Shown piece by piece: positions 11,916-51,960 of a stretch of 64,000 bases of DNA (position 1 is its first letter; each line of letters opens with the position of its first letter). The position numbers and the translations under genes are program-made. The stretch is from Lophium mytilinum (lineage: Eukaryota > Ascomycota > Dothideomycetes > Mytilinidiales > Mytilinidiaceae), in assembly GCA_010093605.1 (NCBI GenBank), contig MU004197.1, forward strand, positions 930,001 through 994,000, in the 5' to 3' direction. Under the pieces are notes generated by a model. That model saw nothing but the letters and a program-made list of their open reading frames with translations. It did not search any database and was not told the origin of the DNA.

Positions 11916-14180
11916 GGCGGCGAATGTTGCCCCTCGGGGACCTGGCAGATGGTGGTGAGAAAGGAAGAAGAGGTCCGGCGCAAGCTGCGGAGAGGGTCCA
12001 GGAGCGCTCGGAAGCGGGGGCAAGAACGACAGGAGGTAGCAGTTGATAGCAGTCGAGCAGGATGCAATTGCTGAAGCTCTCGGGGGCAACTCGCAGTGAT
12101 AAAGACAGTGTGGTAAGGAGGTTGCCGTGTTAATTAAATTCGCTCTCGCTTTCGCAAGCTGCCATTAATTTTTCAGGGGTGGCGCGCTCCAATCAGCACG
12201 CGCCTTCGCCGTGCTCCACTCTCGGATTCTCACACGAGAGTGTATCCGAACCCGAGGAATCATCTGATAATAGAATGGCCAATGCCTGGTCACTCGATGT
12301 ACTCCTATTGCCCGCAAATTCAACACTTTTGACCGCTATTTGAAGCTGATTATCAATTTTAACAACCGGATGATATAGGGACGCTTTGCGGCAATTGAAT
12401 AGAGTCTGTGTCACGTGTCGTTTTTTTTTACCTTGTGGAGAATAGGGGACGTCATTATGGACGATGACTTCTGCTTTCTTTATACATATAACCACCACAA
12501 CAATGCACTCCTCGTATTCCTCTATCTCCACGTGGCGAACCGGAATCTGATACTTCCGCTCCTACTCATCAAGGACCCTTGGACCCTTAGCCGTTTGACT
12601 ACCTAAGCGACGGCATATTCGGCTTCGACATGACTTCGCCTTATTGTAGTGAAGCGAAAGCGAAGCAAGCGAGATAAGTTGTATTTATTGGGATTATCTG
12701 TCACGTCTATCAAGTCCCGCATCTTGTCCTCCCAGGGTATGCAAGATACCGACTTGAGCCCATACAGTCACCCTCATTCAACAATCTCAGTCAAAGCGAA
12801 GTAAGACAATTACAAGAGTTTATTCTAGAGGTACAGTAAGATAGATTGAGACTGAGTTCCCAACGTCCGATGATGCGGACACATCCGTATGGCTCATAGT
12901 ACCCGTGCGAACTGCGTTACAATAAAGGTCTTATATACCTGCATCCTGCAAAGCCATCACAACCTTAATCCAAATATACGTAGCATCCAGCTGCCCAACC
13001 CAGCAACGGTCTCACATGCGGCACCCTCTCACAACCCATAGTCACTAGTAGCACATTGCAACAACCGACTGACGCGTACTTTCACGTCTTAAACGTTGAT
13101 AGTCACCTCATACTGCGATATCAAGGACGGCTGACCCCGGGAAACAGAATACGAAAGCGATTTCCGGACCAGCTATAGAAAAGGACCAGGTTAGAAGCTC
13201 TTGAAGGCTTTCTAAGCCTGTCTATCAGCTAACCACCTACAAAATCTACCGGGAAAGACCGTCGTACCTTAGCTTACCTTAGCTACACCAATATACCAAA
13301 ACGATGCAGCTTTATCTGCAACCTCTACCAACTACCAAGCTTCGGAATTCCTGTGTCCTTGGTGCATGTATTTCCCGAGTCACCTGCACCAACCAGCACT
13401 AACGTTGGTAATGCGCTCCTCTACCGTTGAATTCGTACATACAGGCGCTAAAGTACGACATCTCTTCCACGCAGCGCCAGGACCCAAGGTTGGGCAAATC
13501 GTGTTTTGGTATTCTCCCGGATTCAGTCGCATAACAACGCGCTAACACACCACAAACATCAGCTGTATAGGCAGGCCGGCCGTAAGCGCGTCAACCCTCT
13601 CCAATTCAAACCCTTTCCAAGCCTCCGCAAACTAATCAGAAGCTTCATAATCTATCTGAAGCGCCTCAAACGGTGTTTGAGTAAATGTGTCTACATGTGT
13701 GGCGAGGCGGCACTATAGCTTACCTACGTGACTGCATTGCCACTCAGACAATAAATGCACATTTGTTAAGCTGATCCTGCTCAAACAGACTAGTGCACTG
13801 GGACAAACCTAGGCGCCCAGTGGGGACTACGCTTACCGTCATATCCCCGAGAGTACCCCGCAACCCCATGGGCCGCCTCGTTCATCTTCTTGTCTCGATT
13901 TTCTTTGATACAGCTCATGATGAGTCAGCGCTAAGTCCTCCAGCGTACCGGCGTACTCCTCTGATTAGGCAAGCAGTAATGCTAGTAAGGCCTGCGACGG
14001 CATGCCACCTACGGCGTAGGTATAGATACAGAGGTGCATATAAGTAGGAGGGTGCTTACCTGCAATAGAGTATCTCAGCCTTTCGCTTTTCAGATTCTGA
14101 CGAGCATATATATATATATACATATATTCTTGAGACCTTTTCTTTGCCTGATTAGGACGTCACGGACTTAACGATCGATA
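11916..14180. other. Intergenic between ERG3 and O-methyltransferase
   Basis: About 2.3 kb shared upstream of two divergent genes. Only short frames without domains are present. A TA-rich tract ends it just before the methyltransferase gene. Confidence 0.6.
14106..14127. repeat. (TA)n microsatellite
   Basis: An alternating AT run with one C, about 55 bp upstream of the methyltransferase ATG. It may serve as a TATA-like region, but this is only positional. Confidence 0.7.
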
Positions 14181-15525: not shown

Positions 15526-15680
15526 GTCTCTTGTGGAGAGTAACGTTCAAGATTATGACTTGAATCATACAAGGGCTATCCTGTGGGGCATGTTGTCAGA
15601 TTTTTGAGCTGCAAGAGGAAAGACGGAATCCAGGGAAGATCGGGGCCTAAGATGGCGACTTTGTGAGTCCAAAGGGCACA

Positions 15681-15915
15681 GGAGAGCTGTCACCCCCCCC
15701 CCCAGATTACTAGGAGAAATGTTCAACACGCTCCAAAGCATGGATTTAAGTTAAGAGATATCAAAACAAGGTCCGTTTATTTAGCTCTGCGTACTTGGAT
15801 GCATGGACTCCCTCTTACTGCCGAGTTCTTAATACTAGAAGTCTCGTCGCGACCCTATTTTAAAGGATCTGATTGGTTGATGGGCCCGTGGAGGATTTGG
15901 GGGTGACAGTTCTCC
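15681..15915. repeat. 235-bp inverted-repeat element, MITE-like
   Basis: The left end, GGAGAGCTGTCACCCCC (15681..15697), is the reverse complement of the right end (15899..15915) with one mismatch. The left copy runs into an 11-C tract. No target-site duplication is visible, so it may be an old miniature element or a hairpin unrelated to transposition. Confidence 0.45.
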
Positions 15916-16070
15916 CGTCCACCCCTGTGAAGGTATTCTTTCAGATGGGTTGATCTGCAATTGACATGGAAACAGCTAGTACACGTTCCGAATGAAGTAG
16001 AATAAAGAGAAAGGTATACGACCGTCAACGTCCTCCTCCATCCAGACTAGAACGCATAGTTTCAGCTCAC

Positions 16071-36210: not shown

Positions 36211-36904
36211 TGAGTGACGAGGCGGATTTCGGGATGAGGTGTTGTGGTGGAAGAGGTTCTTAAGGGTGCATATGGGGAAAGGGGATTCATGATTATGACG
36301 GTGACTTTTCTACTCAAGACTAATTACAAATAAAGTCGGGCAAGAGACGGGATTGTACAGTACACAATATACTCATTTTGGGCTTTTGAAGCGTTAAAAA
36401 GTGTTTTCTTTTACTCATCGATGTACTGAGGTGTACTTATCCTGGTCGCATCGCGATCGGGACATAGAGAACTTCACACAATGTCAACAGGCCTGATAGA
36501 GATAGCTTGGACTTCGCTTGAATTACTCTGGATCGTTTACTACACCTCAACCGAGATGCTTCGAAGGGCGCCAAGGGGGCAGAAGTAGGGGAGGCCGAAG
36601 CTAGCCTGATTAATAGCGTGGTAAGCTTTACATCACATCTTAAGTAGGTATAGCATATTAAGGCGCCTCTAACGATAGTGAATGGTTGCTAATAGGATAT
36701 CTCAAGCGACGATTTGGATCAAGGTGAGTCTTATATTCGTTCTTTTTGCTCCAATGCTATAAAGCCTAGTAGACCTCCCATATACTCAAACAGTTCTCAG
36801 CGCGGCCGCGAATATTACCCGTACTCTAGTTCCACCACTCTATTGCGATTCAAATCTCTACAAATCTTTAGAAAGGTACAAAAAATAGCAAAAGCGACGT
36901 ATAA
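36211..36904. other. Intergenic, becoming AT-rich
   Basis: Trehalose phosphorylase 3' region, then DNA whose AT content rises toward the degenerate kinase locus. No gene seen. Confidence 0.55.
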
Positions 36905-37420
36905 AGATAATGTATAACGAGACGACAAACATGGATGAGACACTACCACACTGCCAACGACGCGTAATGGAGGGCTTCTTCATGAAGGGCTCCTTCACAA
37001 AGGGGTCTGATTCGACCTTGACACCTTTCTCTCTGTGCATTTCCCAGAAATTGAAAACCTCCTTCCTCTTCACCATAGCCTACTCCGGTAAAGTATGGGC
37101 CATCATATATGCCGCATCCGGTGCATGTGCTCGAGCAAGCTCGAAGAGTGTTAACGCCGGGGGCCGATTGGAAGTTTCCGAGGTCAGCGCCTGCTGCATT
37201 GCTTGATCAAGACCGGTGGAGTAGTCTAGGCTGATGATAGGCTTCGCCTTTCTCGCCGTATTTCTTTTCGCTTGCTTCTTTGCAGATAGGCTTGCTTCAA
37301 TATCCGAGAAATCCGTGAACTTGGAGCTGAATAGTTCGCATGGGGGCTGGCCGTGGGCGAGGAAGTGTACTACTGCGCCTAGAGCCCATATATCGAACTC
37401 TTCTCTTGAGCGAAGCGGTT

Positions 37421-37570
37421 CTGGGCCCAGCGCTCTTTGGGGTAGGTGACAGCAAACTTGATCGTGTTGGAGGTCTGTCCCTCATCCAGCTTGGAGTTGT
37501 AGCGCTGGTTCGCCTCGATGCGGAGAACGTCGACGGGCAGGTAAGTGTCCTTGCCCTTGGTCATCTTGAC
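37421..37570 (-). pseudogene. Argonaute-like fragment B (linker 2 region)
   Basis: Fifty codons open on the minus strand. TYLPVDVLRIEANQRYN and KLDEGQTSNTIKFAV resemble the linker-2 region of Argonaute proteins, where YLP..C and QTS.MI.FA are typical. It sits between the QPP and EPLRS codons of the kinase pseudogene, where the intact paralogue has nothing. It starts with GT and ends with AG. Assignment rests on remembered family consensus. Confidence 0.6.
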
Positions 37571-37682
37571 AAGGGGCTAGTACGTGTAGGTACCTGGGCC
37601 CCGCTCGTATTCGTCATTCTCGGTGGTTTGGAGGTGAGCGAGTCCGGAGTCGCCCAGGTTAAGATTAGGGTAACCGCCTTCC

Positions 37683-37690
37683 ACGCTGCT
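37683..37690. repeat. hAT target-site duplication, left copy
   Basis: ACGCTGCT, identical to 41198..41205. Eight bases is the size diagnostic for hAT transposons. Confidence 0.9.
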
Positions 37691-39392
37691 CAGGGCTGCT
37701 ATCCAACCAACCAACCAATCCGAGTCGTTCAGATTGGTTGGATTGGCGTATTAGTCAGCGAGGGTCAATATTAGTTGGTTGGTTAGACCAATATTAGCCA
37801 ATATTAGCAATTAGCCAATTAGTATAAGGTTAGTATATAATAGTAATACTTAGCATGGTATTAAGTTTAAGTATTAATTTATCTACCTATTTCTAAACAG
37901 CCTACCTATTTTATAATAGCCTACCCGTTTTTAGCAGCCTACCTATTTTTAGTAGCCTACCTGTTTTTAGTAGCCTTAGTCCTTACTCTAACTTAATATA
38001 TTATTATACGTTTACTTTAATTACTATCCTCTAACTAATCCGCCGTCTAGTATATTAATAAGATTGTCTCTCTCCTATAAAGATAATAAGATAGTTACTC
38101 CTATAATATTAATATCTAGTACTAATCTATTTAGAGCCTATAATAGGCCTATTTAGTTAAAATTATATTTATTACTAGTACTTATAGCTAGAATAAATAG
38201 AAGGTTAAGAGCTATATAGGTAAGATAAGAGTATTTAGAAAGTCTTAATACCTAATACTTAATTAGATTAGTAACGCGGCGGTTATTAGTATACGCACCG
38301 CGGGCAATCTAGTAAGTATACTCGTCCTCTCTAACTTATAATAAAGCTATACTTATAGCTATAACTATAAAGAAGGTTATAAAGAAGTTATTCTTATTAA
38401 GAGCTAATACCTTTACTTACTATTGCGCCTCTACCTTACTAAGTTTAATAATATAGTATTTATATTTTAAATTCTATAGCCTCTATATATTCTTCTTTAC
38501 TTCCCTAATCTAATTAGCCTTACTAGCCTAATACTTCTCTATAAAGTCCTATTTATATGCTAGATATAGTACTATAGCTATAATATAGGTAGCCGTGCGG
38601 TTAGTAAGGTTATAATACTTATTAAGTTTTATCCAGGCAAGGTTAATGCTATATTAAAAGTGCTCCTCTAGGTAGTAAGTATATAGAACCTTAAACTTTT
38701 TAAGATAGAAGAGAAGATTCTTATATATAGGTAGAACCTTCTAAAGAGAGCCTTTCTTTTCTTAAGAGATTCTACCTTCTAGGCGCTTTATAGCTATCTT
38801 AAAGGGCTTTAGAAGCTGCAGATACTCTATAATTACTACCTAGTCCTTATCTATAAGGGTATTCTTTATAATAGCTAGCTACTTATAACTTCTAGTAGGC
38901 GTAGGTTAGGTGCTACTACAGGTCTACTTTATAATATAGGTATACTACTTAGCTACCTCCTCTTCTATAACTATATTAAGATATAGCTATATCTAAATAC
39001 TGCGTTCTATTATAGACTTAATGCTATTCTATTGCGTTGCTACTAGCTTAATAGAATAATATACCTTAGTCTTATTTACTTCCTTCTAAAGCTAAATAAG
39101 ATATTATATGCGCAGCTCTAAATTAAATAGCTATATTATAATAAACTATAGCTTTATAATTAGCCCTAGCTTTTACTAGACTTATAGCTTTAATACTATA
39201 TCCTTATCTAGAAGGTTGTATTTATAGTCCTATAAAAACTCCCCTTTCTAATTACTAGTAAAGAGCGCTCTAATAATAAGGTTAATAACGTAGCTAAGGT
39301 AGCGTAGTTGCTATTTATATTTATTAACTCTAAAGTCTTCTATTTCTTATAGAAATATATTAAGGTTATTAGCGTTATTAGCTATAATATAG

Positions 39393-39400
39393 CCTACCTA
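39393..39400. repeat. Target-site duplication of the nested element, left copy
   Basis: CCTACCTA, matching CTTACCTA at 39771..39778 with one C/T difference, the kind of change RIP makes. Confidence 0.6.
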
Positions 39401-39770
39401 CTTACTATTAGCTGCATGTACGCGTAATAAAATAAGAAGGCTAAGTAATAAAATAAGAAGGCTAAGTAATAAAATAGGAAGGCTATTATATACTACCTAT
39501 TTATAGCAAGACTAATATATACTACCTATTATAGTAAGACTAATATATATAACCTATTTATAGTAAGACTATTATATACTACCTATTCTATATATACTAT
39601 CTATACTATATATACTATCTATTCTATATATACTATCTATTCTATATATACTACCTATTTATAAATAGGTAGTATATAGCAGCCTTACTATAAACGGGTT
39701 ATATATAATAGTCTTTCTATTATATTACTTAGCCCTTCTATTTTATTATATTAACGCAGCTAGCAGTAAG
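39401..39770. mobile_element. Nested 370-bp inverted-repeat element, MITE-like
   Basis: The ends are CTTACTATTAGCTGC and, inverted, CTTACTGCTAGCTGC. The similarity continues inward for about 50 bp, including AATAAAATA and GGCTAAGTAATA. The core is made of many short TATATACTACCTATT-like repeats. It interrupts the transposase remnant: taking it out with one copy of the 8-bp duplication brings VGYIIANNA directly after the upstream reading frame. It carries no coding sequence. Confidence 0.65.
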
Positions 39771-41197
39771 CTTACCTACTCTTATCTAATTTTAAACTAT
39801 TTAAATATCTATACTACTACCTCTTTAATATAGGTTCTACGGTGCCGGTCTATTATTTCTAGTAGGGCTAGTATAATAGAGTAGTATTAATAGACAGCGT
39901 CTATAAAATAGTAATTAATTCCTAGTAGCGCTTTATAATTGCGTGCAGTCTAAAGATCTATAGAGAAGTAAAGCTTTCTAGGCGCTACTAAAAGGAGTTA
40001 TTTAATAGTTTTCTAATAGCGGTAATACTTAGATAGTATATAGGTTTATAGTATTATATAGTATAGTAAGTAATTACTAATAGTAATAGCCTAATTAAGA
40101 TAGGTAAGAAGAGCACGGAGGTGCGGGCTTTTAATAGTAATAAGAGGAATCTTAGTATATATAACCCATTAAATTAGCAGCTAGAAAAAGTGCGTAGGCG
40201 TAAAGGAATAAATAATAGTATTAATTTGCGCTTACTTATAAGAAATACTAGTAGAGAGCTAGAGCTACTTAATAATACTAAGCTATTTTAGCTTCTTAGT
40301 GGCGTATTTACTAATAAAGATCTAATAACTTTTAGACAGGTACTTAGCGTAGTTATTAGTTTCTAGGGCAGTATAGATATAGCCCTCTTATGCTTTTAAT
40401 ATATAGTATAGCTTATAATACTAGAATCTTTTACCTATCTCCTTCTTTTATATATTATAGCTATGCTTCTATACCTCTCCTATTCTATTATACTGCGAGC
40501 GCGTAGGTTTATAATAGCTAAGAAGACGGCCCTAGTTAATATTATTATAGGCGTTTAAGTATTGCGGCTGCTCGGCTACCTTATATTATTACTACTTGCG
40601 GAATACTTATATAAGTATTAGATTATCTTTGCTAGGGTTATATAATAATATAACTATAGATGTAACTATAGATGCAACTATAGATATAATAGAAGTAGAA
40701 GTAGTAGAAGTAGTAGAAGTGGCAGAAGTATAAGAGGTACATTAATTACATTACAGCGGTATAGTAGATGTAATAGTTATAATAGATATAATAGAGTTAA
40801 TAATAAGATTATAATATATTATATACAGCGGCATTAAGGCGTGCAGCATTAAGGTAGCTATCTTAAAAATTCATTATAGGAGGCTATTAGCGCAGGCTAA
40901 GCTAAAAGGGAAGTATATATAAAATAGGAAGGCTATAGTTTATAAAAAGGCTGCAGGTTTATAGTAAGACTATAAGATTATAGCAAGACTATAGTATTAA
41001 AGTTATAGGTAGCCCGCGCTAAGGCGGTATATAGTTACGTGGTAATATATTAGCGTATTAGCTAATACTCTAACTAATTAGAGCCCTCTATATTAGTTGG
41101 TTGGCCTATTTTCTAAAGAGAGATTGGTTAGATTGGTTGCTTATTAATTAACCAATATTGGCCAATCGCCAATATAGTTGGTTGGATAGCAGCCCTG

Positions 41198-41205
41198 ACG
41201 CTGCT
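41198..41205. repeat. hAT target-site duplication, right copy
   Basis: ACGCTGCT. This copy supplies the SS codons of VVPSS in the interrupted kinase. Confidence 0.9.
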
Positions 41206-41315
41206 TGGAACAACAAGAAGGCTTCCGGGCTCTATTTCGTCGTGGATGATGGAGTGTATGTCATGAAGCCACGTGAGGGCCTCTGTCTCTTGAAGGAAAA
41301 GTGCCATATTAGGGC

Positions 41316-41467
41316 CTGGGAGACAACACCAAAGCGGCAGTCACAGGACTTCTTGATACGACGGTACACGTCGATATCCTTGTCGTTGACGATGAACACA
41401 AGAAGCTGCGGGCGAGAGGTGAACTTGTTCCCATTCGCCTGCCAAACGGAGTTGATTATCTCACCAC
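41316..41467 (-). pseudogene. Argonaute-like fragment A (start of PIWI domain)
   Basis: 152 nt inserted between the ITE and ALIWHF codons of the kinase pseudogene. Minus-strand reading gives RPQLLVFIVNDKD, VYRRIKKSCDCRFGVVSQ, very close to the opening strand-helix of the Argonaute PIWI domain (PQL..F..P.KD..Y..IK...D...G..SQ). The segment starts GTGGTGAG and ends CCCAG, so it has the limits of an intron in the kinase frame (phase 0) while itself being open Argonaute sequence except at its first codons. Confidence 0.7.
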
Positions 41468-42299
41468 CTCGGTGATTTGCATTCCGTTTTTGGCCCATAG
41501 CCTGTGAAACATGCTAAGATCGCCACCTTCACAATATTCGAACGCCGACCTTACAGTGGATGGTCCTGGGTTAGGAAGTGTGCCAAGAAACTCCAGAATC
41601 GTCGAGGAGCCTTGCGCTGCTGATATCATCTTGATTTCTTGTATAGCTTCTTCGTCGTAACCACGTTTCATTTTCTTCATGATAATTCCCGGTGCGACTC
41701 CTTGTGCTTGATGTGGCAGATCAGTCCCTACCCCCCGGTATCCAAGGGATGAGACGCTCAGTTCGTATCAAATTCGTCCAGTGAAAAGACGCTCCTATCA
41801 TTGCTCAAGGGCCAACGCAAGAAAGCGAAGAGAGTAAATCGAGAAGCGTTCGGAAATGAGAACATATTGCCCATATTCTCAATCCTGAAAGGAGGTTGGG
41901 GCTTCGTGAGGTGCAAGAGGTAGGTGTCTTGGGACGAGTGATACAAGGTCTTGGTTCGTACAAACTCCGATAGAGGATATTCGGTACTACATGCTGTCGT
42001 ACGCCCGTACACGATGAGTGTGTGGGAGATAGTGATGTTGTTGTGCGAGAAGTTGTGGTGTGGTGTTGTTATGGAGGTCTTGGCGAGTAAGCTATGTGTA
42101 GTTACCAGAACGCGAAGCGGCTTTTTGAGTACCATTCTCACCACGATGTGGCAGTATGCTAGTGGTTATGATGGTACGAAGCGTGGCAGCAGTTCGCTGC
42201 TCCACGCCTAGCTCGTTCGCGCCTCCTGCTTCGCTAGGGAGCTCGTGGTGTGCGATGAGGTCGTCTGTGAGTTGGAGAGAAGAATAATTGGCAGATCAT

Positions 42300-42465
42300 C
42301 GAAGTTGTCGCGAACTTAGGATTCACTCGGGCAAGGGCAGTACCAGTAGCCCTAGATGTAGAACTGCCTAGCTTGGCGTTGATCTTCATGCAGACATTCG
42401 ATGCATACTGGGAGTCCAACTTGACGCACTGGGCCGAGTGTGCAAAGTGATTGGAGAACTCCAAA
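42300..42465 (-). pseudogene. Argonaute-like fragment C (PIWI domain)
   Basis: About 50 codons just downstream of the intact kinase gene: SAQCVKLDSQYASNV, CMKINAKLGSSTSR. In Argonautes a SNV..K.NAKLGG piece directly follows the segment seen in fragment A. No stop or catalytic Asp region follows; the resemblance fades after about 42300. Confidence 0.65.
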
Positions 42466-42509
42466 AGAGTCGGCTATAATTCTCAAAAGTGTTGCCAGAC
42501 GCTCTCCCT

Positions 42510-43715
42510 CTATGCGAAGGGATCATCTTCCGTTTTGGCGTCCGGAAACAACTCCCATAGGTTGAATTCGTGATGACCGGGTACTTTTCTCTTGATTGCC
42601 CAGTCTTCAAGGGGCTTTGCCGCCATTCTAGCTTTAGCAGGCGCGAACGGCCTGACAAGCTGCAAGAGCTGAGACGCGGTGGGCCTGTCTCGGGCATTCA
42701 AGTGACATGCTGATTGTATGGCGCGACAAAGAGCGTCGCAGTGCAGGCGGCCTGGCACACCGCAAATATGTTTGGCCTTCCTCGGTGCCAGATTCTTCCT
42801 CTCCTTCTTTTCTTCAATCGGCATGTCGGTGTCGAGACGGCCCAAAGAGCAAGGGGATTCCCCATGGGCAAGGTAGTGGATAACGCTACCCACAGCCCAA
42901 ACGTCTGATGCTTTCGTTGACCGAAATGGCTCGGGAGGCTGGTAGCTCCAAGTGCCTGCTCCATACTCTTCTTTATCTCGCTCTTCGCTCTGGAACTCAG
43001 CAAGCCCAAAGTCTGCATATTTTATCTCTGGATAGCCACCCGTTGTGGTTGAAGCGATGAGGATGTTGGCAGGTTTGATGTCTCGATGGACTATGTTACA
43101 CTCTTCGTGGAGGTGGACCAAACCCTCGGCTAGTTGCTTGAATATGTGCCACAAGAGAGCGTCCGTCAGAGGCTTCTTGTGTTCTTGCCACGCATTGTAG
43201 TACTCGCTGAGATCACTCTCGCGGCAGTACTCGAACACAGGCCGTAGTTTGAGTGGCTCTGGGGGGTTTGGAAGGTTGCCCAGGTAGCTGAGGATGCGTG
43301 GGTGGCCTCCCGCGGCCTTGAACATTTCTATCTCATGTTTGGTCTCTTCGTCCACATCATGGAACATTTGTTTCATGATATAGTACCGGTGTGATTTCTT
43401 GTGTTGGATGAGGTTTATCGCGCCTTGCCCTCCGCGAGTGATCTCTCGGTATCCCCAATTTGTAGTGAGCGTGTCCTCTTTGAAAGTTACATTCTCGTAC
43501 GAGGGAACAAGCCCGGTCTCGGCGTTGTCGATTGAACTGTTGGGAGTGTCTTTAATGTCACTATTCTTGTCGAGAGCGTCCTCAAGGCTGGACACTTCAT
43601 CGGAAGAGGTATCTATGTTGGTCCATTCGTCTGAAATGTCCTCGATCCAAGCACATTGCGTCGAAGTTTCGTTAACGATACTCCACTGCTCGAGAGTGTC
43701 GTTGAATGTAGTCAT
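42510..43715 (-). CDS. Serine/threonine protein kinase
   Basis: Single-exon protein of 401 residues. The first 90 residues are acidic and disordered. The kinase domain spans about residues 95-370: glycine-loop region ITRGGQGAINLI, Lys in YYIMKQM, Glu in the following helix, catalytic loop VHRDIKPANIL, Mg-binding ADFGLAEF, a short activation segment GAGTWSYQPPE, DVWAVGSVIHYLAHG and a conserved Arg in NARDRPTASQLL. All catalytic residues are present. The class looks like fungal orphan kinases of the NEK/PLK-like branch, but I cannot name a family member. The degenerate copy downstream at 36905..41775 shows the locus duplicated. It ends about 45 bp before an Argonaute-like fragment, and 42.2 kb shows no other gene. 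Confidence 0.85.
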   Translation of the reverse strand: MTTFNDTLEQWSIVNETSTQCAWIEDISDEWTNIDTSSDEVSSLEDALDKNSDIKDTPNSSIDNAETGLVPSYENVTFKEDTLTTNWGYREITRGGQGAINLIQHKKSHRYYIMKQMFHDVDEETKHEIEMFKAAGGHPRILSYLGNLPNPPEPLKLRPVFEYCRESDLSEYYNAWQEHKKPLTDALLWHIFKQLAEGLVHLHEECNIVHRDIKPANILIASTTTGGYPEIKYADFGLAEFQSEERDKEEYGAGTWSYQPPEPFRSTKASDVWAVGSVIHYLAHGESPCSLGRLDTDMPIEEKKERKNLAPRKAKHICGVPGRLHCDALCRAIQSACHLNARDRPTASQLLQLVRPFAPAKARMAAKPLEDWAIKRKVPGHHEFNLWELFPDAKTEDDPFA

Positions 43716-45087
43716 TGCGTCGGTGGCCGTGGTTTCAGTGCTGCTTGCTTGTCAAGTGTTGGTATTAAAGGTGGGCTTGAAGTTGTTAGAAGTGTGTATG
43801 AAGAAGGCAGACGCAGACGCAACGTAAGTTATTAAGTGCAAATTCTACGGCCACAATTGTGCATAAGTGGCGTGGTTCTGAGGTCTGCACAATGTGGTAG
43901 CGATATACTGATCCATGGGTGGTTGGTTGTTCCAGAACGAAAGCCGTCACGTGTCCATTACCAAAGCCAGAGCGAGGGCCTAATAAGACCACGAACACGA
44001 CAATAATCCATCTCTTTCCGAAGACCAGCACGCAGAGGAGCATCTGCTTATGTACAGCACTGGGTCATAGGCTTGAGCGCATCGATATCTCAATGCTAGG
44101 GCTCTAACCCTGCCTGTTTGACACCACCGTGAGGAATGGCCCGGCTAGCAGGTGGACCGTCAGTCAAAAGGTACCCTGTTTGCCGCTGTGTCGATCTTTA
44201 CATCGTATTCGGAGGTTTAACGCCCCTAGAGGCGCCCCAAGCAGTGGCAAGCAATATGGAGGTTTAGAGGAAGAGTGTTGAAATAGCGGACATGATTCAA
44301 ACCACAGGCGAAAGAGTTCTGATGTACAGTGACAGGCCACAAGTCTGGGCACATTAGCTTGACACCGCATGGAGTTCCCCCACAGGATTTCGAAGATCCA
44401 AGGGTGATGTCGAGGTTCAAGCAGTGTAGATTGGACTACCTCTGGACTAATTGGCTGCTCAACAGCCAGGGTATCCCCGACAGTGGTGTCGAGTGAGCAA
44501 GTTGGAGCCAAGCTGTAATGAGTATATGTGCCCAGACTTGTGGCTTAGTACTGTAGCGTGTTGTGACCAAGAGGAGAGATAAAGAGGATGAACAACAGTT
44601 TTTATTAAGACCTAAAAGAGAGGAGTATGCCATTCGACCAGCAAATTAGACATGAGGTTGGTATCCAATAAAATCCGCACCATTTCGTTATTCTTGGCCA
44701 TAGCGCGCGACCACTACCCACTGCGTTTCTAGAGTGCACTTAAATGGTCTTAGCTCTGCTAAAATCTAGCGATCGATGCGTTATGATCATCAAGCCGTAA
44801 AGTCGTCCTTTGATAAAAGGCGTTGATGTCGCTGAGGGCTATAACAACAGAAATAGTGTTTGGAAGGTAGGTTTGTCGTGAACAGTCTGAGCTGTGCGCA
44901 CTGGTTGTCGGTGTGCGGCGAGTTTGGGATATGAGGTTCGACCATGCAGACGTCGGAAAGTATGTGTGACGAGAGCAAGCAAAGGTGATTTGGGCTTCCA
45001 TTTAATGCGGTCAGATAGTAGTAGATTTGTCGTTCCCGTCCACATGGTCGTTGAGGGTGTTCGAGAATGCGCTACGGCCACGAGGTA

Positions 45088-49679: not shown

Positions 49680-51960
49680 GACGCCACTGTACGGAGTCCT
49701 CTCGCTACTGGGTGGCTATTTGGTCAAAATGATAGCCAATCTATACCGCGCCAACAGTGACATTCATCAAGGACATGAAATCTCTAAGCTTGGCCACAAA
49801 CTCGTTCTTACTACCCATAGGGCTACGCTTTTGCTTCCTTGAAGCCACTGTACGAAGTAGCTCAGCCCATTGGTGGCCGGTTAGTTAAGAGGTAGCCCAG
49901 ATTACAACCCATCAACCTTGACATCCTATACGGACATTGGTTCCTAATGTTTTGGGCCCTGAATCGTATATTTTAAGGCTAGGCCTATACTTTTGCCGGT
50001 TCCACACCGCTGTCAGGAGTTGCTCAACTCGCCGGTAGCTAGTTAATTAATAAGTAGACTAGATTACGACCCAGCAGCCTTGACATCCTACACAGGCGCC
50101 AAAGTCTATTATTTTGGGCCCTGTATCGTATACTTTAAGGCCAGTCCGCTACTTTTGCCGGTTCGATACCGCTGTAAGGAGTTGCTTAGCTCGCTGGTGG
50201 CTAGTCGGTCAAGAGGTAGTCTAGATTACAGCCCATCAGCCTTAACATCCTACACGGACGTGAAAACGTATTACCTTAGGTCTAACTCGTATATCATAAG
50301 GCTACGATCTCGCTCTTATTAGTTTGATACCCCTATAAGGAGTACCTTAGCCAATCGATGAACAGTCCGTTAAAAGGTAGTCCAATTGACACAGTCTTGA
50401 TCCCGATATCCTAACCAAACATAAAAGATGCGAATGTAGATAGTGGTATGGATATAGTAACGCTAGGCCTTTATTCTTTCTCTCTTAACACTACTTTAAC
50501 ACTACTATAGGGGGTAGCCTAATGAGGTAGTATGCCCTGGTTAAGAGGCACCCTAGTTTATACTGCAGTAACCTTGATATACCCCTAGAGGACGTGAAAG
50601 CTATAGGCTTTAGGCCTAAATTAGATATAGCAACGCTTAGGTTTGGTTCCTACTCCTTAAATACTGCTGTAAGGAGTAGCCTAACTAGCTAAAGACCGGC
50701 CAGTCAAAATGTAGCTCATTTCATACTACAGGGACGACAATATCCTTTAAGAACATAAAGATGCAAGCTTGGACAAGGCTTCAGATATCACAGCCCTAGA
50801 GTTTCCTTTTTTCTCGCTCGACACCACCGTGTAGGGTAGCTCAGCCAGCTAACCGCCGGTCGGTTAAAAGGTAACTTAATATATACCTCGTTAGCCTTGG
50901 CATCTACTAAGAATATAAAAGCTACAAGCTTAGGGACTAAGTTAGATATGGCAGCGCTAGTAACTTACTATTGCTCGCCCGATACTACCGTGAGGAGTAG
51001 CTCAACTAGAAAGTAGCCGGCTGGCCAATAGGTGGTCTATCTTCCCACGTGTTGACCTTAGCATTATGCTGCAGTAGCTATTACTATAACCACCCAGATC
51101 TAGCACTGCTTGAGAGCCCCTCTAGAAGCTGAACACCACTGTCAGGAGTACCTCCGCCATCAAATAGCCGGCACGTCAAAACGTAGTTTACTATTCGCTG
51201 TATGGCCTTGACATTGGGTTGGAGTGGCTCCAGCACTAAGCCACAACTGTGGGCACACGGACATCACTGCTTGAATACCGCTTTTGCAAGCTGGACGCCA
51301 CTGTCAGGGGCAGCCCCTTTGCGAAGATACCTCTCTATCAATAGGAAGCTCATTTCGTAGTGTCTAAAACTTGACAAGAGGCCTACATTGTCCTCACCGC
51401 ACAGAGGCACCCCTTGCAGTGGCAATCGAGTGTGTACAAAGGTATGCCTTGTTACTGTACAGCCACACGGATGTTAGCATTGCTCGAGTGCTGCTCTTGA
51501 AGCTGCTTACCACTGTCCGGAGAAGCCTGGCCAGCAAGTAGCCATATAGTCAAAAGGTGGTCTAACATCTACTGCGTGAGCCTTGACGTTACCCTAAAGC
51601 AGCTATAAGATTAGCTATACGGATGTTAGCACTGCGCAAGTGACGCTTTGAAAGCTGCTTACCACTGTAAGGAGTAGCTCTGCTAGTCGGTAGCTAAGTG
51701 GCCAAAAGACAATCTAATATCTACTGCTAGATCCTTGACGTTGCGCTGGAGTAGCTACAACTCCAGCCACACGGATGCTGGCAGGCTTGAGTGCTACTTT
51801 GCAAGCGATACAACACTGTCAGGAGTAGCCTAACTAGCAGGTACCCAGTCAGGTAAAAGGCAGTCTAATGTATACTGTGTACAGCTTGACGTCGCACCTA
51901 GAACCGTGAAGTCCCCCGGGGTCCCATCAAACAGGGGCAAACGAGTGTGCACAAGACTTC
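49680..51960. repeat. Degenerate tandem array, about 14 units of about 160 bp
   Basis: A core like CACTGTAAGGAGTAGCTCAGC recurs near 49685, 49845, 50006, 50168, 50328, 50500, 50661, 50823, 50981, 51132, 51297, 51509, 51659 and 51811. Spacings are mostly 150-172 bp, with one of about 212. Each unit also has a GGTNGTCTAAT-like block, a CTTGACATCCTACACGGAC-like block and often TTAGGCC. Units differ by many substitutions, so the array is old. No protein frame runs through it. Confidence 0.8.

Follow-up and report, generated by a model that had tools for sequence, protein, structure and literature searches.

Short Argonaute pieces at a decayed kinase locus of Lophium mytilinum and their probable origin in break repair

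Argonaute pieces in the window

Three short pieces of an Argonaute (AGO) gene were found at a decayed protein-kinase locus in a 64,000-nt stretch of the Lophium mytilinum genome (C17:930001-994000, hereafter the window; the genome comprises 43.2 Mb in 24 contigs). Short AGO stretches were probably copied or captured into breaks of this decaying locus by error-prone repair. The pieces themselves were observed directly, as were their identity, size, order and orientation, the clean insertion of one of them (piece C), and an appearance younger than that of the kinase; from these, we infer the repair mechanism itself. The presence of AGO pieces in the decayed kinase is real, and it is richer than first reported: a preliminary description of the window claimed two segments (pieces C and L2), both of which were recovered, and missed a third (piece D).

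Each piece was matched to an AGO gene on contig C2 (C2 AGO) in a search of the whole 43.2-Mb genome, to which the E values of the pieces in Table 1 refer. Because the values were computed on that scale, chance is excluded for the matches of C and L2. The assignment of both segments to Argonaute on the minus strand was therefore upheld, and the suggested search of the same genome for a source gene led to C2 AGO. The suggested profile comparison was less fruitful. When the 50-residue pieces were submitted to Pfam alone, none reached the cut-off (for L2, PAZ at E 0.0025; for D, Piwi at E 0.0087; for C, no hit); the AGO identity of the pieces thus rests on the DNA match to C2 AGO, which is significant. 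The domains originally named, PIWI start and linker 2, were partly right: C spans the MID/PIWI border, and L2 is mostly the end of PAZ, touching only the start of linker 2.

All three pieces are exonic. Their order in the AGO gene is L2, C, D, and along the same strand of the window it is D, C, L2, with every piece in sense. The AGO parts of C and D are ca. 6 nt apart in AGO and ca. 820 bp apart at the kinase locus. With the transposon described below left out, the three pieces (150, 152 and 149-152 nt for D, C and L2, respectively) fall within ca. 1.5 kb. They are separate insertions of one orientation and form no tandem row. The rest of this stretch gave no additional C2 AGO match.

Runs identical to C2 AGO are 47 and 32 nt long in D and 44 and 23 nt long in L2; none in C exceeds 18 nt. 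Runs of identical codons occur inside D and L2, from which no claim is drawn. On sequence grounds, it is possible that small RNAs from the locus would match the real AGO gene. A role of the locus as a retained source of small RNAs regulating this gene is most improbable. The identical runs and the location of the pieces on the same strand as the kinase would agree with such a role; however, C lacks an identical run longer than 18 nt, the pieces are not arranged as inverted copies, and a DNA-level targeting role does not predict the third-codon-position differences presented below.

Table 1. Positions of the features discussed (in the window, except for the last row, which is in local coordinates)
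Feature	Position	Strand	Description
AGO piece D	42291..42440	-	150 nt; residues 483-532 of the C2 AGO frame, PIWI; 90.7% identity, E 3.8e-52
AGO piece C	41311..41468	-	residues 430-482, MID/PIWI border; 84.8% identity over 158 nt, E 4.1e-43
AGO piece L2	37425..37576	-	residues 252-302, PAZ end/linker 2 start; 92.8% identity over 152 nt, E 2.9e-57
Decayed kinase gene	36999..41805	-	outer limits of protein matches; broken up by C, the hAT-like element and L2
Intact neighboring kinase	42510..43751	-	413-aa open frame; Pfam Pkinase E 8.6e-35
Putative hAT-like DNA transposon	37691..41197		3507 bp; 21-bp terminal inverted repeats
8-bp target-site duplication, one side of transposon	41198..41205		sequence repeat
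8-bp target-site duplication, other side of transposon	37683..37690		sequence repeat
Mosaic loci	L014 149-1880; L009 4409-6235; L025		pieces match several unrelated genomic places

The Argonaute gene on C2

The C2 AGO gene is apparently intact. In its main open frame (815 residues), Pfam located PAZ at 186-290, ArgoL2 at 299-344, Mid at 356-413 and Piwi at 452-760; Piwi had an E value of 7.7e-73, and PAZ, ArgoL1 and ArgoL2 were also above the cut-off. The frame matches solved AGO structures (human AGO and QDE-2). A comparison of the gene region (3,601 bases) with the genome yielded 19 rows: the gene itself, nine pieces of the gene body and nine short matches to its 5' region. The short matches, some of which are in tandem on C1, were left out of the analysis. 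The body pieces are distributed over six loci, i.e. C17 (three), C4:189 kb (two), C4:431 kb, C23:124 kb, C6:45 kb and C1:2.12 Mb. Within the genome, only the C2 gene was recovered as a close full-length AGO match.

Other PIWI genes and relics that were compared (on C12, C15 and C1) are 22-38% identical to C2 AGO at the protein level, except for the C6 and C1:2120465 pieces. Three PIWI domains are nearly complete and free of stops; they are located on C2, C12 and C15. Partial PIWI-domain stretches, some with stops and others stop-free, are gathered on one contig, C1 (829-839 kb, 942 kb and 2.189 Mb; also 1.3-2.0 kb).

Given that partial and decayed PIWI genes are present on C1, the window pieces might be regarded as relics of a second AGO gene, or of interleaved pseudogenes, that decayed in place. 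The preliminary description had offered two interleaved pseudogenes as an option. This origin is hardly credible: the pieces are in the reverse of the gene order yet each is in sense, C lies cleanly between kinase codons, no further C2 AGO match accompanies them in this stretch, and the other PIWI genes and relics are, with the two exceptions noted, as distant from C2 AGO as stated above.

The kinase locus and the insertion boundaries

On the minus strand, the intact kinase comes first and is followed by the decayed kinase (matches from ca. 41805 to 36999). The latter was delineated by tblastn of the intact neighbor against four stretches that were kept apart; the best E values of the four were 1.6e-16, 2.4e-5, 1.5e-9 and 2.8e-25. 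The aligned stretches contain at least three stops as well as frame changes, and the HRD of the intact kinase is HDE in the decayed one. When 36501-45000 was compared with itself, no DNA match between the two kinases was found; their kinship is visible at the protein level only. Piece D is 69 bp beyond the stop of the intact kinase and outside the kinase coding stretches found.

The inserted part of piece C (41316-41467, 152 nt) is located between two kinase codons with a 1-nt ambiguity, the codons having been placed by eye against the intact neighbor. Kinase matches flank it on both sides, and no loss of kinase sequence was seen by eye versus the intact copy. The earlier statement that this segment sits cleanly in the kinase frame was thus confirmed. 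The bounds given for the other segment (37421..37570) were not. Past L2, the kinase reading resumes at 37424 (PEPLRS versus PEPFRS of the intact kinase), and so the last four bases of that segment, including its AG, are kinase; the piece itself ends at 37425. Its inserted part is 149-152 nt long, with an ambiguity of ca. 3 nt at the upstream end.

These boundaries bear on the proposition that the kinase recently acquired the pieces as spliceosomal introns built from AGO coding DNA. Piece C can be placed as a phase-0 intron of 152 nt, GTGGTG...CCCAG, although a second placement is equivalent. This manner of reading is open to C only, although both segments had been described as beginning with GT and ending with AG: the CAG/AG at the end of the other segment belongs to the kinase, and removal of the 150-nt segment does not preserve the kinase frame. 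Further, D is outside the kinase coding stretches found, the kinase is itself disrupted by stops and frame changes, and the possible donor sites GTGGTG and GTCAAG look weak, by eye, next to the GTAAGT in the AGO piece at C4:188-190 kb. Introns were rejected as a general reading on account of the frame failure at L2, and we give intron gain very little credence.

The transposon between C and L2

A putative hAT-like element, so assigned from its 8-bp duplication and short terminal inverted repeats, is located between C and L2, and its ends contain none of the three pieces. Its GC content is 0.30 and its TpA/ApT ratio is 1.70, compared with TpA/ApT ratios of 0.61-0.88 in four other stretches of the window. 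The AT-rich interior has a very strong dinucleotide signature resembling that of repeat-induced point mutation (RIP); the sequence to either side is normal.

Capture by a mobile element was another of the options offered earlier. A gene-capturing element (a Helitron, a Mutator-like element (MULE) or the hAT-like element) would have brought in the AGO pieces. The position of the hAT-like element between C and L2 is in favor of this idea, as is the capture of gene fragments by Helitrons in fungi, reported in the excerpted text of PMC4289320. Nevertheless, all three pieces are beyond the ends of the hAT-like element, which has its own 8-bp duplication and holds no piece; C joins kinase at both sides; and 36501-45000 has only AGO sequence in common with the other piece-bearing loci compared. 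Capture by this transposon was rejected because all pieces lie outside its ends, and mobile capture of any of these kinds appears very unlikely. The hAT-like element is an insertion separate from the AGO pieces. For the locus as a whole, neither the intron nor the mobile-element reading holds.

Codon-position bias and the donor

The three window pieces differ from C2 AGO at 49 positions, of which 44 are third codon positions (D, 13/14; C, 21/24; L2, 10/11) and five are first or second positions. Compared with drift, which would place about half of the differences at the third position at most, this excess has a P value of 3.8e-9. The piece at C4:431 kb agrees (9/10, with one gap), and those at C1:2.12 Mb (32/41) and C4:189 kb (13/17) also have the bias; the shares at C23 (11/18) and C6 (40/84) are not different from drift. 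D, C and L2 contain no stop and no indel, while the surrounding kinase is interrupted by stops and shifts of frame, and for this reason the pieces look young. RIP was rejected as the cause of the third-position differences because the changes go in both directions (C>T and T>C).

The bias means that the pieces differ from C2 AGO as a homologue long under selection would. This pattern suits pieces copied recently from a diverged, functional AGO; it does not suit copies of the resident gene that drifted for a long time. That the pieces are nonetheless such old copies, made from a self donor by the same repair mechanism, is unlikely. In favor of a self donor, the genome yielded no close full-length match besides the C2 gene, and the pieces at C6 (44 differences at positions 1 and 2, 40 at position 3) and C23 (7 and 11, respectively) fit neutral drift. 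However, drift predicts similar numbers at positions 1 and 2 combined and at position 3, as opposed to the 5 and 44 of the window, and the window pieces are devoid of stops and indels.

Overlapping pieces were examined for alleles that they share and that are absent from C2. Piece C and the C4:189-kb piece share such alleles at 8 of 89 sites, all of them third positions (5 and 8 are private to the respective pieces). The corresponding values are 3/141 for L2 and C23 (5 and 12 private), 9/123 for C6 and C1 (20 and 8 private), and 1/64 for D and C6 (5 and 9 private). On these counts, C clearly shares alleles, whereas the sharing is weak in L2 and D.

We infer that the donor was a functional AGO distinct from the resident C2 gene, i.e. 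an allele of another lineage, the gene of a hybrid partner, or a lost copy. Where RIP is active, as in Neurospora, a close full-length paralogue should itself be mutated. Active RIP would thus favor a donor from another lineage. A bolder proposal, which we regard as possible but rather doubtful, is that the pieces are nucleosome- or Okazaki-sized fragments of a diverged, functional homologous genome, caught at breaks while that genome was being lost; this sister genome could have come from a hybrid partner, a heterokaryon mate or taken-up DNA. If this were true, the resident chromosomes would hold datable fossils of that genome's AGO and other genes.

Mosaic loci elsewhere in the genome

AGO pieces are also found in rows with pieces of other genes. 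At C4:188-190 kb, the row consists of a match to C19:104950 (149 nt), two AGO pieces, a match to C12:796 kb and a match to C14:430.6 kb (160 nt); further off is a piece that matches C5:1.0998 Mb (145 nt). Within this mosaic, 34 bp of an AGO piece are present in two copies 81 bp apart (L009 4952-5066), and one AGO piece spans the apparent first intron. At C4:430 kb, pieces match C5, C7, AGO (148 nt), C10 (two pieces) and a SUB2-like helicase gene at C4:1.535 Mb. The helicase piece contains apparent intron sequence and abuts a C10 piece to the base. Among the C4 mosaic junctions, one pair abuts, two pairs overlap (by 5 and 11 nt), and the rest are at least 9 nt apart. C1:352-355 kb is another mosaic, with matches to three C15 places, C1:447 kb and the AGO 5' region, and with many rows from one repeat.

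The apparent intron sequence in one AGO piece and in the helicase piece points to DNA or unspliced RNA as the source; spliced mRNA was rejected as a general rule because of these pieces at two other loci; the exonic window pieces do not bear on this point. AGO was likewise rejected as the only donor, since the mosaic pieces match many places. Donors that seem to recur are AGO (nine pieces), C5:1.099 Mb, C10:1.646 Mb and C15:1.054 Mb, with the caveat that the controls for this recurrence are soft, as long queries missed their own place. The C19 donor is presumably NOT2-like and the C14 donor tRNA-synthetase-like, as judged from the translated letters rather than from a family search. For four such donors (seven stretches), the share of differences at the third codon position is 53/82 (P 0.005), and it is mixed between pieces. 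Eight of 13 matches in four match lists (at least 84% identity and at least 90 nt) are 145-160 nt long.

Search controls and other repeats

Three control queries returned their own place. The intact kinase region gave 46 rows (one self, two C2 AGO and 43 of a 230-bp repeat), the C12 AGO gene gave two (self and a 70% match on C15), and the 3' part of the dead kinase gave three (self, C2 AGO and the C23 AGO piece). In two long controls from the window (17.0 and 19.4 kb), nothing resembling this set of pieces appeared; both failed to recover their own place, however, which makes their sensitivity doubtful. The 17.0-kb query had seven rows, five of a 250-bp repeat and two collinear C3 matches (76-78%); all 53 rows of the 19.4-kb query were within a single repeat-rich stretch.

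That stretch (50342-51896) is built of dispersed repeats with identities of 67-87%. A dispersed repeat of ca. 230 bp is located at 44325-44555 and has at least 43 match rows in this genome (73-96% identity). The repeat of ca. 250 bp at 15676-15932 has five more genomic places (68-82%). The C3 matches fall on two stretches within 12667-13068, possibly a paralogous gene.

Proposed mechanism

Breaks would have arisen in an already decaying kinase locus, and AGO stretches of ca. 150 nt would have been copied or captured into them by template switching or by joining of short DNA fragments to the broken ends. The multi-gene rows of short pieces at other places in the genome would be products of a process of this kind. 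Template switching during repair, the remaining option of the preliminary description, was the best fit of its three. The resemblance to short templated insertions is drawn from the size of ca. 150 nt, the apparently recurrent donors, the rows at other loci and the clean insertion between codons. The sizes of the window pieces correspond to the ca. 150-200 bp of such insertions. Nucleosomes, Okazaki fragments or a short-run polymerase may each account for this size.

Several points weigh against insertion by repair. The window pieces are separate, and tandem joining was seen at C4:189 kb and C4:430 kb instead. The bias implies a donor gene that was not found in this genome. A RIP-like process, which spares short duplicates and may remove longer ones, could itself favor short survivors. 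The 84% cut-off of the size count was chosen after the lists had been viewed; at 80%, our own count of the same four lists was 9/21, and many matches shorter than 90 nt were excluded from both counts. Insertion was judged within one genome, against the intact neighboring kinase. Finally, two same-locus pieces in the same orientation are very rare in the yeast rad27 deletion, according to the excerpted text of PMC11724301.

Comparison with known systems

Among the titles and beginnings of abstracts listed, no matching report was found of nucleosome-sized gene fragments or Argonaute fragments in fungi, or of duplicated gene-fragment mosaics in Dothideomycetes. In the portions of PMC7347108 and PMC11724301 drawn on here, short templated insertions are described in damaged human cells and repair-deficient yeast. 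A fungal genome that keeps many such pieces with recurrent donors would be an instance of this process at work on evolutionary time scales. The third-codon-position bias offers a test of the origin of the DNA, self-copying versus capture of a diverged genome, and could make such pieces a record of past hybridization.

Two known processes resemble the locus in part. Helitron capture in fungi (PMC4289320, in part) likewise moves gene fragments about the genome, but here no element ends were seen around the pieces and C lies cleanly between codons. Intron gain by break repair, as reviewed in PMC3443670 (in part), is similar in that C is in a coding frame with a readable GT..AG; unlike in that process, L2 fits no intron and the kinase is dead.

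The closest likenesses are to short templated insertions. For tandem-short-template (TST) jumps, insert medians of 183, 150 and 199 bp are reported, with sources in hotspots of 1-10 kb (PMC7347108, in part). The fungal pieces share with them inserts of ca. 150-200 bp, apparently a few recurrent donor spots and, at two C4 loci, rows. The TST jumps were described in human cells after chromosome-bridge breakage and in a tumor, whereas the present pieces are fixed in a fungal genome, and those of the window are single inserts. Insertions at breaks in yeast dna2, rad27 and RPA-related mutants (median 187 bp for the dna2 deletion; PMC11724301, in part) are also copy-paste events of distant genome fragments; same-locus pairs in the rad27 and RPA-related mutants are mostly inverted, in contrast to the three co-oriented pieces here. 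In light of these comparisons, the AGO pieces are most likely repair-made short insertions, unusual in their apparently recurrent AGO donor and in the implied AGO version that was not found in the genome.

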